Below are positions 3,247 to 41,671 of a stretch of DNA of 48,965 nucleotides, in pieces (positions within the stretch are counted from its first letter, which is position 1; every line of letters starts with the position of its first letter). The DNA is from Streptomyces coryli (GTDB taxonomy: Bacteria > Actinomycetota > Actinomycetes > Streptomycetales > Streptomycetaceae): contig NZ_JAAKZV010000031.1 in assembly GCF_011044975.1 (NCBI RefSeq), positions 1 to 48,965 of the forward strand, in the 5' to 3' direction. The notes under the pieces were generated by a model. It made no database searches and had not been told where the DNA came from. It was given only the letters and a program-made list of their open reading frames with translations. The position numbers and the translations under genes were made by a program.

Positions 3247-4236
3247 ATGAACCTCCGTAAGACGACGCGCCTGGGCGCGGCCCTGGTCGTTCCTGCCCTC
3301 CTCTTCACCGCTGCCTGCGGCTCCGACGACGGCTCCGACTCCGGGAAGGGCTCGGGCGCCACGGTGTCCCAGGTGTCCGGGAAGTTCGGGCAGCAGCCGA
3401 AGATCAGCGCGCCCAAGGACGCCAAGGCTCCGGACGAGGTGGCGGTCAAGACCCTCGTCGAGGGCAAGGGCGACAAGATCGCCAAGGGTGACCAGGTGCG
3501 CCTGGACATCGCCGGGCAGGCGATGAAGGACAAGCGCGACCTCGGCTCCACCTGGGCCACCGCCAAGAAGGGCGACAAGGGCCCGCACCAGCAGCTGATC
3601 GAGAAGATCGGCCAGCCGAGCCAGAGCCTGCCCCCGAAGGTGCAGGAGGCGCTCGTCGGCGCCAAGCCCGGCAGCCGGCTGCTCGTCGAGGGCACCGCGG
3701 GCGCCATCGTCGGCAAGGCGCTGAACCCGCAGGCGGGCATCAAGAAGACCGACGGCCTCACCTGGGTGCTCGACGTCCAGGGCGCCGCCAAGGTCGACTC
3801 CAAGGCCGAGGCCGAGGGCAAGAACGCCGCCGTGAAGGCCGGCCTGCCGAAGGTCGAGAGCCCGGCGCAGAAGCCCGCCAAGATCACCATCCCGAAGGGC
3901 GAGGACGCCCCGGAGAAGCTCGAGCAGCAGACGCTGATCAAGGGCGACGGCAAGACGGTCAAGGCCGGCGACGGCGTCATCGCGCAGTACACCGGCGTGG
4001 CGTGGGAGGACGGCAAGAAGTTCGACTCCTCCTGGGACAACGGCGGCGCCACCCCGTTCCAGATCGGCACCGGCGCGGTCGTCAAGGGCTGGGACAAGGC
4101 GCTGGTCGGCAAGAAGGTCGGCGACCGGGTGCTGATGGTCGTCCCGCCGAAGGACGCCTACGGCACCGACAAGAAGGCGCACAAGCTGGGCGGCAAGACC
4201 CTGGTCTTCGTCGTCGACGTCGTCGGTACGGTCTGA
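3247..4236 (+). CDS. Secreted FKBP-type peptidyl-prolyl isomerase lipoprotein
   Basis: Starting at ATG 3247 gives 329 residues: basic N-terminus, hydrophobic stretch (LGAALVVPALLF) and the lipobox TAAC followed by a Gly/Ser/Asp linker, so an exported lipoprotein. Two FKBP-like modules follow. The first (about residues 60-185) is degenerate and lacks the usual pocket residues. The second (about 220-329) is typical, with IAQYTGV, KFDSSWD, VVKGWDKAL and DAYG. It probably catalyses proline isomerisation of proteins outside the membrane. An in-frame ATG at 3205 would put 14 residues ahead of the signal peptide and is less likely. It lies directly upstream of a cytosolic FKBP. Confidence 0.9.
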   Translation: MNLRKTTRLGAALVVPALLFTAACGSDDGSDSGKGSGATVSQVSGKFGQQPKISAPKDAKAPDEVAVKTLVEGKGDKIAKGDQVRLDIAGQAMKDKRDLGSTWATAKKGDKGPHQQLIEKIGQPSQSLPPKVQEALVGAKPGSRLLVEGTAGAIVGKALNPQAGIKKTDGLTWVLDVQGAAKVDSKAEAEGKNAAVKAGLPKVESPAQKPAKITIPKGEDAPEKLEQQTLIKGDGKTVKAGDGVIAQYTGVAWEDGKKFDSSWDNGGATPFQIGTGAVVKGWDKALVGKKVGDRVLMVVPPKDAYGTDKKAHKLGGKTLVFVVDVVGTV

Positions 4237-23160: not shown

Positions 23161-23201
23161 CGCCACTTGCCCGCGGCTGCTGACGCCGCATCTCACCGAG
23201 G

Positions 23202-23246
23202 GGCCCCGCCCCGGTCGTCATCGCGACGGCCGGGGCGGGGCCTTCG
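23202..23246 (+). terminator. Strong terminator ending the betaine-type ABC operon
   Basis: An 18-bp GC-rich stem starts GGCCCCGCCCCGG at 23202 and closes with CCGGGGCGGGGCC ending at 23242. The loop is about 5 nt and TTCGG follows. It separates the transporter from the Y RNA promoter region. Confidence 0.85.
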
Positions 23247-23258
23247 GCGTTTATTCGG

Positions 23259-23287
23259 ATGACACCGACTCCCGGCGCTCGTACGGT
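23259..23287 (+). promoter_or_regulatory. Candidate promoter of the Y RNA-rsr unit
   Basis: ATGACA (23259-23264) matches the -35 consensus at five of six positions and is 17 bp from TACGGT (23282-23287). Predicted initiation near 23294 lies a few bases before the closing stem of the structured RNA. Confidence 0.6.
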
Positions 23288-23302: not shown

Positions 23303-23450
23303 CGGAGCGCCCGGTGCGCAGGCTGCGGTTACTTCTCTGGATCCAAAGGTTGCGGGTTCGAGTCCCGTCGTCACCTCTGGGGTGGCGTAGCTCAAATCGG
23401 ATAGAGCATTGGAATGAATCCGCCGCCGAATTCTGAACTCGGGCGCTCCG
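23303..23450 (+). ncRNA. yrlA: Bacterial Y RNA (YrlA-like) with circularly permuted tRNA-like module
   Basis: A 12-bp closing stem joins 23303-23314 to 23439-23450. Inside lies a complete tRNA core in permuted order. CCAA (23343-23346) is followed by variable loop AGGTT, T arm GCGGG-TTCGAGT-CCCGT (23352-23368), acceptor strand CGTCACC (23369-23375), a TCTGG loop in place of the CCA end, and acceptor strand GGTGGCG (23381-23387, seven pairs). Then come TA (positions 8-9), D arm GCTC/GAGC with A14, G18G19 and A21 in its loop (23390-23407), A26, and TTGG (23409-23412), which pairs with CCAA. A further GGAT/ATCC helix (23339-23342, 23418-23421) has a 5-nt bulge and leads to an irregular helix, the presumed Ro60 site. 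YrlA RNAs of other bacteria have this architecture and bind Ro60. The 3' end and any processing are inferred. Confidence 0.87.
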
Positions 23451-23468
23451 GAAAATGACGGGGGAATC

Positions 23469-25019
23469 ATGGGCAAGTTCACGTACGAGGGCGGCGCGGC
23501 CTATACCCGTGACAGCAAGTCCGATCTCGTGCTGCTCGCCGTCGTCAACATGGTCGGCGAGGGCACCTTTTACGAGAAGGCCGCCGACCGCGACGACCGG
23601 TTCCGCGATCTGGTGCGTACCGTCGCCGTGGCCGACGGCGCGTGGACCGCGGGCTTCGTGGCCTGGCTGCGCGGCGAGGCCAACATGCGGTCGGCCTCGC
23701 TGGTCGCCGCCGCCGAGGCGGTCGCGGCCCGGCTGGCCGAGGGGCTGCACGGCGGTAACCGCGCCATCGTCGCCGCCGCGTGCCGGCGCGCCGACGAGCC
23801 GGGCGAGTTCCTCGCGTACTGGATGGGTGCGTACGGCCGCACGCTGCCGAAGCCGGTCAAGCGTGGCCTCGCCGACGCCGTCCGCCGCCTCTACACCGAG
23901 CGTGCGCTGCTGAAGTACGACACCGGCGGCGCCCGGGACTTCCGCTTCGCGGACGTGCTGGAGCTGGTGCACGCGGCGCCCGACGCGGGCAAGCCGTGGC
24001 AGGGTCCGCTGTTCCAGCACGCGCTCGACCGGCGGCACGGCCGCCGCGAGGGCGCGGTGCCGGAGGCGCTGCGGACCGTACGGGCGCGGGGCGAGCTGAT
24101 GGCGCTGCCCGAGGCCGGGCGGCGGGAGCTGCTCGCCGCGCCGGACGCGCCCGCGCGGCTGCGTGCGGCCGGCATGACCTGGGAGGCGCTGGCCGGCTGG
24201 CTGCAGGGGCCGATGGACGCGGAGGCATGGGAGGCCGTGCTGCCGTCGATGGGGTACATGGCGAAGCTCCGTAACCTGCGGAACTTCGACGAGGCCGGGC
24301 TGAGCGACGAGGCCGCCGCGCAGGTGGCCGAGCAGCTCGCCGACCCCGCGGAGGTCGCGGCGTCGCGGCAGTTCCCGTACCGCTTCCTGTCGGCGTACCG
24401 GGCCGCCCCTTCGCTGCGCTGGGGCCACGCGCTGGACAAGGCGCTGACCGCGGCCACGGGCAACGTGCCGGTGCTGCCGGGGCGTTCGCTGGTGCTCGTG
24501 GACACCTCGGCGTCGATGGGCGGCCGGCTCTCGCGGCGGTCGGAGGTCCGGCACGTGGACGTCGGCGCGCTCTTCGGGGCGGCGCTGGCGCACCGGGGCT
24601 GCGATGTCGACCTGGTCGGCTTCGCGAACGGGCACTTCCGGCACGGACTGACGCCGGGGGGTTCCGTGCTGCGGGACATCGAGGCGTTCTGCGCGCGGAT
24701 CGGCGAGGTCGGGCACGGCACGGAGACGGTGGCGGCGCTGCGCGCGACGTATCGCGGGCACGACCGGGTCGTGATCGTCTCGGATATGCAGGCGTTCGCG
24801 TACCCCGGCTACGGGCTCGGGAATGTGTCGGTGTCGGACGCGATCCCGGCGCAGGTGCCGATGTTCGGGGTCAACACCACCGGCTACGCCACCGTGTCGA
24901 TCGACGCCACCCGGCGGAACCGGTACGAGATCGGCGGCTTCAGCGACAAGCTGTTCAGCATGGTCGGGCTGCTCAGCGACGATCGCGTGGCCGCTTGGCC
25001 GTGGGAGACCGCGGCCTGA
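23469..25019 (+). CDS. rsr: TROVE-domain Ro60 orthologue Rsr (Y RNA-binding protein)
   Basis: Ro60 proteins form a ring of helical repeats that binds the ends of misfolded RNAs and, on its outer surface, Y RNAs; bacterial Rsr works with exonucleases such as PNPase. The 516-residue product has the TROVE HEAT-like region (about 1-335) and a C-terminal von Willebrand A domain (about 338-516). The MIDAS motif DTSAS lies at 345-349, with a conserved Thr in GHGTET and Asp in IVSDMQAF. GGGGG at 23460-23464 is the ribosome binding site for ATG 23469. The gene follows the Y RNA by 18 bp, so one transcript could give both. No rtcA/rtcB genes are adjacent. Confidence 0.93.
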   Translation: MGKFTYEGGAAYTRDSKSDLVLLAVVNMVGEGTFYEKAADRDDRFRDLVRTVAVADGAWTAGFVAWLRGEANMRSASLVAAAEAVAARLAEGLHGGNRAIVAAACRRADEPGEFLAYWMGAYGRTLPKPVKRGLADAVRRLYTERALLKYDTGGARDFRFADVLELVHAAPDAGKPWQGPLFQHALDRRHGRREGAVPEALRTVRARGELMALPEAGRRELLAAPDAPARLRAAGMTWEALAGWLQGPMDAEAWEAVLPSMGYMAKLRNLRNFDEAGLSDEAAAQVAEQLADPAEVAASRQFPYRFLSAYRAAPSLRWGHALDKALTAATGNVPVLPGRSLVLVDTSASMGGRLSRRSEVRHVDVGALFGAALAHRGCDVDLVGFANGHFRHGLTPGGSVLRDIEAFCARIGEVGHGTETVAALRATYRGHDRVVIVSDMQAFAYPGYGLGNVSVSDAIPAQVPMFGVNTTGYATVSIDATRRNRYEIGGFSDKLFSMVGLLSDDRVAAWPWETAA

Positions 25020-26961: not shown

Positions 26962-27903
26962 ATGAGCCACACCATCGTCCCCGCCGAAGGCGTCCGGCTT
27001 CCCTGGGAAGGGGTCCCGGACCACGTCCGGCGTGCCGTCGAGGCCGAACTCGGCGCCGCCGTCGTCGCGGCCGTGACGCAGACCGGTGGGTTCTCCCCGG
27101 GTGTGGCCGCCCGGCTCCGGCTCGACGACGGGCGCCGGGTGTTCGTCAAAGCCGTCAGCGCCGAGACCAACGACATCTCCGCCCGGATGCACCGCAAAGA
27201 GGCCCGGAAGGTCGCCCTCCTGCCGCCCGGGACCCCCGCGCCGCGGCTGCTCGGGTCGTACGACGACGGGACCTGGGTCGTGCTCGTCTTCGAGGAGGTC
27301 GAGGGGCGGCAGCCCCATATCCCCTGGGAGCGCGACGAGTTGCGGCGCGTGCTGGCGGCCCTCGGCGAACTTGCCCGTATCCCCGCGCCCGACGGCGTCC
27401 ACGCGCCGCGCGAGGACGGGTTCGGGCGATGGCGCGAGATCGTCGCCGCGTACGACGCCGGCGAGGACGACTTGCACGGGCTCGACCCCTGGGTGCGGGA
27501 CCGTATCCACGAACTCGCCGAGCGCGAGGACCGCTGGGCGGTGGCCGCCGCCGGTGACACGCTCGCCCACGGCGACGTGCGCGCCGACAACATCCTTCTG
27601 ACGGCCGACGGCGCCGTCTTCGTCGACTGGCCGCACACGCTGCGCGCCGCGCCCTGGTTCGACCTCCTCATCTCGCTGCCCTGCATCGCCATGCAGGGCG
27701 GGCCGGACCCGGAGGAGACGTTCGCCGCGCACCCGCTCGGGCGGGACGCGGACCCGGACGACGTCACCACCGTCCTCGTCGCCGTCACCGGCCTGTTCCT
27801 CGGCGGCGCCCGTCTCCCCGCGCCGCCCGGGCTCCCCACCCTGCGCGCCTTTCAAAAGGCGCAGGGGGACCAAGCCCTGGCCTGGCTCAGGAAGCGGCTC
27901 TGA
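26962..27903 (+). CDS. Aminoglycoside-phosphotransferase-like small-molecule kinase
   Basis: A 313-residue protein of the APH/choline-kinase fold. The catalytic loop is AHGDVRADNILL (Brenner motif, with Asp and Asn) and the metal-binding Asp follows in VFVDWPHT. An N-lobe lysine is visible in RVFVKAVSAE, and the hinge is VVLVFEEVEG. It should transfer phosphate from ATP to a hydroxyl of a small molecule; such Streptomyces proteins are often called resistance enzymes, but the substrate cannot be deduced. The 3' end overlaps the convergent amidotransferase-like gene by 17 bp. Confidence 0.85.
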   Translation: MSHTIVPAEGVRLPWEGVPDHVRRAVEAELGAAVVAAVTQTGGFSPGVAARLRLDDGRRVFVKAVSAETNDISARMHRKEARKVALLPPGTPAPRLLGSYDDGTWVVLVFEEVEGRQPHIPWERDELRRVLAALGELARIPAPDGVHAPREDGFGRWREIVAAYDAGEDDLHGLDPWVRDRIHELAEREDRWAVAAAGDTLAHGDVRADNILLTADGAVFVDWPHTLRAAPWFDLLISLPCIAMQGGPDPEETFAAHPLGRDADPDDVTTVLVAVTGLFLGGARLPAPPGLPTLRAFQKAQGDQALAWLRKRL

Positions 27904-41385: not shown

Positions 41386-41671
41386 GTGCTTGCTTCCGCC
41401 CCGGCCTGCTACTCTTGGGTGTCAGACCGGCCGGATACGTGTGTGTCCGGCCCGCAAGTGGAGGCTCCGAACTCCCACCTGATCGGCCTTACGGTCGGCA
41501 GGTCACCGGTCAAGATGCGCCCCGCGGCCTGCCGTGGCGGTGCTCCCCCGGCAGGAGCCCCGTCACTTGTGTCCCGTTCGGGGCATTTTTCATGCCCCGC
41601 AGCGAGTGGTCACCACAGACGATTACGCGGCTGTCCGCCAGGCATCCGCGTAGGAAGCCCGAGGAGGCCCC
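41386..41671 (+). promoter_or_regulatory. infC: infC operon promoter and long 5' leader
   Basis: TGTGCT (41386-41391), 18 bp, TACTCT (41410-41415) is a plausible promoter; initiation near 41422 would give a leader of about 250 nt with no coding sequence. Hairpins include GCTCC/GGAGC (41542-41558) and CGGGGCAT/ATGCCCCG (41579-41599, TTTTC loop). infC-rpmI-rplT operons in other bacteria are autoregulated through leaders by IF3 or L20; which applies here is not visible. Confidence 0.6.

Follow-up and report, generated by a model that had tools for sequence, protein, structure and literature searches.

Our comparative analysis indicates that the RNA encoded just upstream of the Ro60 gene in the window, by which we mean the whole stretch of 48,965 nucleotides analysed, is very probably a divergent YrlA-like Y RNA gene of the Ro60 locus; this is the best explanation for its anatomy, its covariation and its association with Ro60. 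An initial annotation, made from the sequence alone, had proposed a YrlA-type Y RNA at this place, which is also our best reading. At the level of sequence comparison, the fold, the modularity and the Ro60 association are established. Moreover, as judged from related sequences, the window RNA is one member of a multi-copy modular family, which goes beyond what that annotation had claimed. We use the label "YrlA-like" because the RNA has the anatomy of YrlA but fails the cut-off of the Rfam YrlA model (RF02553), which was not reached in any of the 15 Ro60-relative loci scanned either.

Anatomy of the RNA and its genomic setting

The unit occupies window positions 23303-23450 on the forward strand and measures 148 nt from stem to stem, Y RNAs being about 90-150 nt long. 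The start codon of Ro60 (TROVE) lies 18 nt 3′ of the end of its closing stem (23450). In the following list, A1 denotes an alignment of 38 long units from Ro60 loci and A2 the short units.

23199-23248, forward strand: GC-rich inverted repeat, a probable terminator after the upstream transporter gene, which it separates from the Y RNA and Ro60
23259-23287, forward strand: promoter-like element seen in the sequence, ATGACA (23259-23264), a 17-nt spacer and TACGGT (23282-23287)
23303-23313, forward strand: 5′ strand of the outer (Ro60-type) closing stem, 9 of 11 pairs with two-sided change in A1
23314-23320, forward strand: GUGCGCA, internal-loop side between the two outer stems, conserved in A1 and A2
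23321-23328, forward strand: 5′ strand of the inner stem, 7 of 8 pairs formed with 23420-23427
23330-23335, forward strand: conserved UACUUC, with U, C, U, U and C invariant in A1 and A2
23342-23346, forward strand: 3′ strand of the anticodon stem, UCCAA, tRNA positions 39-43, pairing with UUGGA
23347-23351, forward strand: variable loop of five bases, AGGUU, tRNA positions 44-48
23352-23368, forward strand: T arm with UUCGAGU, tRNA positions 49-65 (anatomy and A1)
23369-23375 and 23381-23387, forward strand: acceptor strands 66-72 and 1-7 around the UCUGG joining loop, 7 of 7 pairs
23388-23389, forward strand: U8 and A9 (anatomy and A1)
23390-23407, forward strand: D arm with G18G19 (anatomy and A1)
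23408, forward strand: A26 (anatomy)
23409-23413, forward strand: 5′ strand of the anticodon stem, UUGGA, tRNA positions 27-31, pairing with UCCAA
23420-23427, forward strand: 3′ strand of the inner stem, pairing with 23321-23328
23440-23450, forward strand: 3′ strand of the outer closing stem, pairing with 23303-23313
23460-23465, forward strand: GGGGGA, Shine-Dalgarno-like, 9 nt after the closing stem
23469-25019, forward strand: Ro60/Rsr (TROVE) protein of 516 aa with a conserved DxSxS; Pfam TROVE 4e-14 over residues 250-311

The elements of a permuted tRNA that had been described from the sequence were all recovered in place, and the tRNA numbering works. Its T arm, acceptor stem and D arm follow one another in the permuted order, with a 5′/3′-end stem beneath the tRNA-like domain as in YrlA-type RNAs, and the window's A15 and U48 are able to form the Levitt-type pair that had been suggested. 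The closing stem, given before as 12 bp, consists of 11 Watson-Crick pairs between 23303-23313 and 23440-23450, with the twelfth only as a possible G-U. G15, C16 and G17 of GUGCGCA are invariant in both the long units of A1 and the short units of A2; the one inner-stem mismatch, U23324-C23424, is likewise non-standard in 24 of the 38 A1 units. The T-loop UUCGAGU presumably resembles a TruB target. As for a functional tRNA, ARAGORN reports none in the window, there is no anticodon and the acceptor ends are joined by a loop.

The next gene had been named as Ro60, and this holds: in addition to the TROVE match, a profile of the Ro60 alignment matches solved Ro60/Rsr proteins over the whole length. 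These include the TROVE proteins 9l5y and 9kop (3.2e-45), RO60 9nen, SS-A/Ro 1yvp and the "Ro sixty-related protein, RSR" 2nvo (1.2e-8, positions 3-500), which we take to be from Deinococcus. TROVE was found in all 11 aligned Ro60 relatives, and the DxSxS motif is presumably the metal-site motif of vWA domains. The Ro60 neighbour protein matched no NCBIfam family. A few genes after Ro60, an APH-type phosphotransferase-family protein is encoded at 26962-27903, for which no NCBIfam resistance family reached its cut-off. The window also carries the Streptomyces sRNA Scr1601 (Rfam RF02830, 115.5 bits) at 41422-41591 on the forward strand.

Upstream of the unit, a terminator scan found a stem at 23229-23248 with a T-rich tail (1 found vs 0.5 expected by shuffles), and the inverted repeat at 23199-23244 was seen through chance Rfam matches. 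The element ATGACA-17-TACGGT was missed by a strict consensus promoter scan. In 109 of 129 loci, the first unit was preceded at a distance of 0-30 nt by a TANNNT box, vs 32 of 200 mononucleotide-shuffled upstream regions.

Comparative evidence for the tRNA-like fold

The initial annotation had suggested the Rfam YrlA model as a check, and the outcome is divided: RF02553 matches 23322-23432 significantly (E 5.2e-8, 801 bases searched), but at 42.6 bits against a gathering cut-off of 69, and a gathering scan of the whole window reports only Scr1601. The match omits the outer 11-bp stem with the GGUGCG/CUCGG frame, in which the window RNA also differs from YrlA; the permuted order is common to the window RNA and the RF02553 consensus, and so is a helix of 4 bp below the T arm. 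With an E limit of 1, a control search with RF02553 gave matches in 13 of 14 genomes. Since tandem tRNA-Asn genes (loci L020, L024 and L034) score as high, at 38.4-43.4 bits, the Rfam score alone is weak evidence, and we rejected it as sole proof.

Folding of the single sequence, also suggested before, did not bear out the expectation. The minimum-energy fold of the full RNA (-64.5 kcal/mol) is not tRNA-like, the tRNA-like fold lying 6.1 kcal/mol above it at -58.4, and the folding energy is ordinary (z -0.66; 49 of 200 shuffles at least as stable). Predicted pair probabilities are high for the acceptor (0.92-0.99), D (0.95) and closing (0.97-1.0) stems, and about 0.05-0.13 for the inner, anticodon and T stems of the tRNA-like fold. 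In isolation, the tRNA-like domain folds nearly as named (-25.1 for the named structure vs -26.0 for the minimum). Since the minimum-energy fold of the full RNA departs from the tRNA-like one and does not outperform shuffles, we base the case on comparison.

For this comparison we assembled 105 Ro60 loci, made up of the window, 15 Ro60 relatives, 60 hand-picked upstream regions and 29 from an automatic set of 30, in which L049 was a repeat of L001. Within the Streptomyces genus group, 148 of the 295 genomes searched had a Ro60 match. A scanner, that is a motif-and-stem search for the outer frame, was run on the 105 Ro60 upstream regions and found 169 units in 102 of them, against a single unit in 105 dinucleotide shuffles. 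It expected CTCGG; the most upstream long units of many loci carry CTCTGG and were recovered by R1, a covariance model built from A1 with the window included. R1 gave matches in 104 of the 105 loci at E up to 0.01, the exception being L012. The window scored 135.8, being itself in the training set, and held no second Y unit by R1 (next best E 0.024); R2 matched the same place at E 0.00066 and elsewhere at 0.41 or worse.

The definition of a complete permuted tRNA applied to 62 of the 169 scanner units, among them that of the window, and to none of 8100 dinucleotide shuffles (81 inner parts of >=60 nt, 100 each). When the T arm was kept and the remainder shuffled, 178 of 7700 sequences agreed with it. 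In A1, 33 of the 41 named pairs show two-sided change and 89.4% of cells are paired; the covariation score is 0.498 vs 0.163 in shuffles, and none of 500 shuffles reaches any of five measures. The counts for the closing, inner, T, acceptor and D stems, including two-sided change in all 7 acceptor pairs, are inflated because the A1 rows were picked for pairing there. The anticodon stem and the contact 15-48 were not used in this choice, and in the anticodon stem 5 of 5 pairs show two-sided change with 70.5% of cells paired. Unaided, RNAalifold recovered the closing, inner, T, acceptor and D stems from A1. The minimum-energy fold was also considered as the real structure and rejected: its covariation in A1 is weaker (two-sided change in 23 of 48 pairs, reached by 52 of 500 shuffles), and most of its support comes from helices that the tRNA fold also contains. 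The covariation proposed as a check in the initial annotation was thus found for the closing, inner, anticodon, T, acceptor and D stems as well as for 15-48.

Positions 15 and 48 are unpaired in the secondary structure, and their partnership is, as far as sequences can tell, the strongest sign of a real tRNA elbow. A regular-expression parser handled 155 of 170 model-matched units (15 remained unparsed); in these, 15-48 is G-C in 89, A-U in 63 and other in 3. Among 60 parsed units of the 62 from the scanner, which overlap with the 155, it is A-U in 44, G-C in 15 and other in 1. In A1 the partners are standard in 38 of 38 rows (U-A 23, C-G 14, U-G 1). On a Ro60 tree of 45 rows with one unit per locus, the A-U label changes 8 times and the G-C label 7 times, counts that include switches to and from loci without a complete parsed unit; the 15-48 pattern is therefore not one inherited event. 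Furthermore, position 8 is U and position 14 is A in 152 of the 155 parsed units.

It is very unlikely that the RNA is instead left over from a tandem pair of tRNA genes, in which the 3′ half of the first gene beside the 5′ half of the second would imitate a permuted tRNA. Like RF02553, R1 catches such pairs: the tRNA-Asn pairs of L020, L024 and L034 score 47.6-57.8 bits, those of L172 and L173 give full-length matches of 55.9 and 55.6 bits, and short true units score within the tandem-tRNA range. However, L020, L024 and L034 match the core of R1 only (model positions 34-116), the window is free of ARAGORN tRNAs, and its RNA has an outer module with covarying stems, such units standing at 104 of 105 Ro60 loci.

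A modular family of units at Ro60 loci and elsewhere

Long and short units have the outer frame of GGUGCG, UACUUC and CUCGG in common, with a variant AAGCG...UACUCGC in L004-L006, and differ in the inner part, which is missing (short unit of about 85 nt), a T arm only, or a permuted tRNA. By the scanner, 40 of the 105 loci have one unit, 57 two and 5 three. R1 detects more, and several Streptomyces loci, such as L077, have a long-short-long order before Ro60.

The permuted inner parts fall into three types. The first, to which the window RNA belongs, has an open anticodon loop like the Rfam YrlA consensus. The second carries an anticodon arm (83 of the 155 parsed units), and 73 of its units have five pairs and a seven-base loop. 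The third has a D arm that we take to be Leu/Ser-like; of its 30 units, 25 have a long variable region, which is found in 6 of the 125 other units, at least two of the six through a misplaced anchor. The parser labelled 83 units as hairpin, 33 as open and 39 as other, with the Leu/Ser-like ones within "other".

In the 73 complete arms, U33 is present in 73, C32 in 68, A or G37 in 71 and A38 in 70, while 19 different anticodons occur; U33 is also found in 31 of 31 distinct anticodon arms. As the loop keeps Y32, U33, R37 and A38 and the anticodon drifts, selection may act on the tRNA body and anticodon loop and not on decoding. Permuted tRNA genes occur in some algae and archaea, and the complete arms with U33 and a purine at 37 in the kin of the window copy would suit a gene of this sort, from which a working tRNA is made by circularising the product and cleaving it at the acceptor loop. 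Nevertheless, the window copy is without an anticodon, its kin have 19 triplets at that place, and a working tRNA would account neither for the outer stems nor for the link with Ro60, which makes this explanation extremely improbable.

Among 55 distinct examples with complete arms, coordinated changes are seen at the pairs 28-42, 30-40 and 31-39. The strand that follows the D arm suits pairs 27-43 and 28-42, whereas the one following UACUUC suits 30-40 and 31-39. The open pairing 27-31/39-43 is hardly above shuffles in these units (3.56 vs 3.41 pairs, 68 of 2000), and the hairpin, which was selected for in the definition of the class, is above them (5.00 vs 4.13 pairs, 0 of 2000). Because a good fit to the open strand is confined to the outer pairs 27-43 and 28-42, we read the complete-arm units, on sequence grounds, as tRNAs split within the anticodon stem around the Ro60 stem.

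By its Ro60, the window groups with seven other rows of the tree, in a clade of eight with support 100/98. The initial annotation would have regarded its proposal as refuted if closely related rsr loci lacked the segment. The Ro60-binding-type frame is present at the seven other rsr loci of this clade; the complete permuted tRNA is absent there by the scanner, which finds only reduced units. In L001 and L002 the frame of the second unit is nearly that of the window (GGAGCGCCCGGTGCG). Inner modules would therefore have been lost, gained or exchanged on a kept frame, and we read the reduced rsr units of the clade as the outcome of such exchange or loss.

That tRNA finders usually miss such RNAs, as had been stated, applies to the window copy but not generally, as ARAGORN reports a tRNA overlapping a Y unit in 7 of 15 loci (L004, L005, L007, L008, L009, L010 and L013), in 5 of them wholly within the unit. 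Phage annotations place a tRNA gene on a Y unit in 2 of 5 opened, for example a tRNA-Arg, in the phages GiJojo and VanLee (L174 2188-2262, L178 2126-2197). The tRNA genes called on Y units are probably misannotated permuted tRNA mimics.

The link to Ro60 was also followed through 80 Streptomyces genomes, in a comparison that is partly circular because R1 was built from A1. R1 matches with E below 1e-10 were found in 39 of 40 genomes with Ro60, the exception being G171 with 5.2e-9. None of the 40 Ro60-free genomes had a match below 1e-10; 5 were without any, and 35 had matches at E up to 0.01, none of them better than 1.5e-9. Among the matches listed, from 19 of these 35, 17 were core-only (model 34-116) and those of G094 and G035 full-length, the latter being tandem tRNA-Asn genes (L172, L173) by sequence. 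We read the core-only matches as tandem tRNAs as well, judging from the part of the model matched and from L020, L024 and L034, which come from Ro60-bearing genomes.

Ro60-bearing genomes also carry units away from Ro60. Some of these have a promoter-like element, recognised by eye, and an inverted repeat just downstream; this repeat was found in 7 of 8 tested (L158, L159, L161, L163, L165, L017 and L028; not L164). L017, L022 and L028 come from genomes of the window's own Ro60 clade. These units bear on the unlikely alternative that the window RNA is a cis-acting leader of the Ro60 mRNA, which would bind Ro60 or a tRNA-related ligand to control translation and would never be released. The closing stem ending 18 nt before the start codon and the terminator-like stem upstream of the unit would fit such a leader, as would scans that show neither terminator nor promoter between the unit and Ro60, although the promoter scan also missed the upstream element. 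Against it stand the free-standing sister units with their promoter-like element and downstream inverted repeat (7 of 8), from which a trans-acting form probably exists in the family. A cis-acting leader and a released RNA can both hold.

Further Y-like units were noted in other settings. In the Ro60-bearing Streptomyces L166 and L167 they lie directly before priA (by NCBIfam above cut-off), and similar sequence occurs in L168-L171; Leu/Ser-like D arms run across L166-L171, and L166 and L171 have paired units. L157 carries a complete long-short-long Y array at 3603-4001 with no Ro60 in the 8 kb covered; the Ro60 of this genome lies elsewhere and has units of its own. Two tandem permuted tRNA-like cores with a conserved spacer were seen in L036 1524-1726 and L039 1524-1745 (minus strand); this RNA-like stretch is common to Nocardia takedensis and Dactylosporangium siamense and lies off the Ro60-locus contig found. 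On a Bifidobacterium longum plasmid, a Y-like match (L182 4004-4091, 46.8 bits) lies just downstream of a Ro60-like gene.

Possible roles and relation to known Y RNAs

The closest known counterpart is Salmonella YrlA (RF02553, PDB 6CU1) which, according to PMC8394870, has D, T and acceptor arms above a 5′/3′-end stem and is linked to rsr, like the RNA described here. Unlike YrlA, the window RNA has sister units that include tRNA-free, T-arm-only, Leu/Ser-like and anticodon-arm versions. In Deinococcus radiodurans, the Y RNA/Rsr/PNPase complex RYPER likewise combines an RNA with a Ro60 orthologue, the RNA being the presumed tether; we liken the two by description (PMC8394870 and PMC8058203). 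Loci with Ro and Y RNA also occur in phages, namely mycobacteriophages and Streptomyces, Gordonia and Arthrobacter phages: Ro was matched in 211 phage records, and each of the 5 loci examined among them had R1 matches near Ro. The phage Ro60 proteins are at most 47% identical to that of the window among the 20 matches listed and below 60% in all 211. Y RNAs in mycobacteriophages are cited as reported in PMC12282133. Within the literature covered, our search returned no title on Streptomyces Y RNAs and nothing joining Y RNA, Ro60 and Streptomyces, or permuted tRNA and Y RNA; an earlier description of actinobacterial arrays may exist.

Based on published work in Deinococcus and Salmonella (PMC8394870, PMC8058203 and PMC7790460), from which Ro60 binding and the recruitment of PNPase or other enzymes are drawn, the outer double stem with GGUGCG...UACUUC/CUCGG would be the Ro60-binding module. 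Ro60 would most likely grip this outer stem, and the inner part would display a tRNA elbow and acceptor arm without a free 3′ end and without an anticodon. The tRNA-like part may then gate the Ro60 ring or tether a partner that recognises tRNA or structured RNA, such as PNPase or tRNA-handling enzymes. Most simply, the Y RNA would form the 5′ leader of the Ro60 transcript and be freed by processing or early termination; since it would make up most of this leader, it would be excised from, or end early within, the transcript. Bound there, Ro60 would be placed 9 nt from the ribosome-binding site, and autoregulation would be possible.

Published work on YrlA offers further leads. TruB and DusA, enzymes that modify the T and D loops, act on YrlA as described in PMC8394870, and PMC7790460 raises YrlA as a possible competitive inhibitor of anticodon nuclease. 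For the latter role, the complete-arm units would be better candidates than the window copy. A wider proposal, which we consider possible but doubtful, is that actinobacterial Ro60 carries a library of tRNA mimics on one frame, used as decoys or adaptors for tRNA-handling enzymes or anticodon nucleases, with the window copy regulating Ro60 as its leader. As part of the same tentative proposal, the library would be found in cells and phages and would cover Leu/Ser (class II)-like tRNAs as well as tRNAs permuted within the anticodon stem, where one side of the Ro60 stem would supply 27-28/42-43 and its other side 29-31/39-41.

Overall, the family has a practical and a biological meaning. On the practical side, the Rfam cut-off misses YrlA-like units, and ARAGORN as well as phage annotations call tRNA genes there. 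According to PMC7790460, the function of bacterial Ro60 and Y RNAs has been studied only in Deinococcus, and the purpose of the tRNA-like part of Y RNAs is left open. Our family provides natural tests in which one Ro60 frame is seen without any tRNA, with a half, open or Leu/Ser-like tRNA, or with a complete tRNA whose anticodon drifts; two or three units per locus are frequent, and the genus is genetically tractable.
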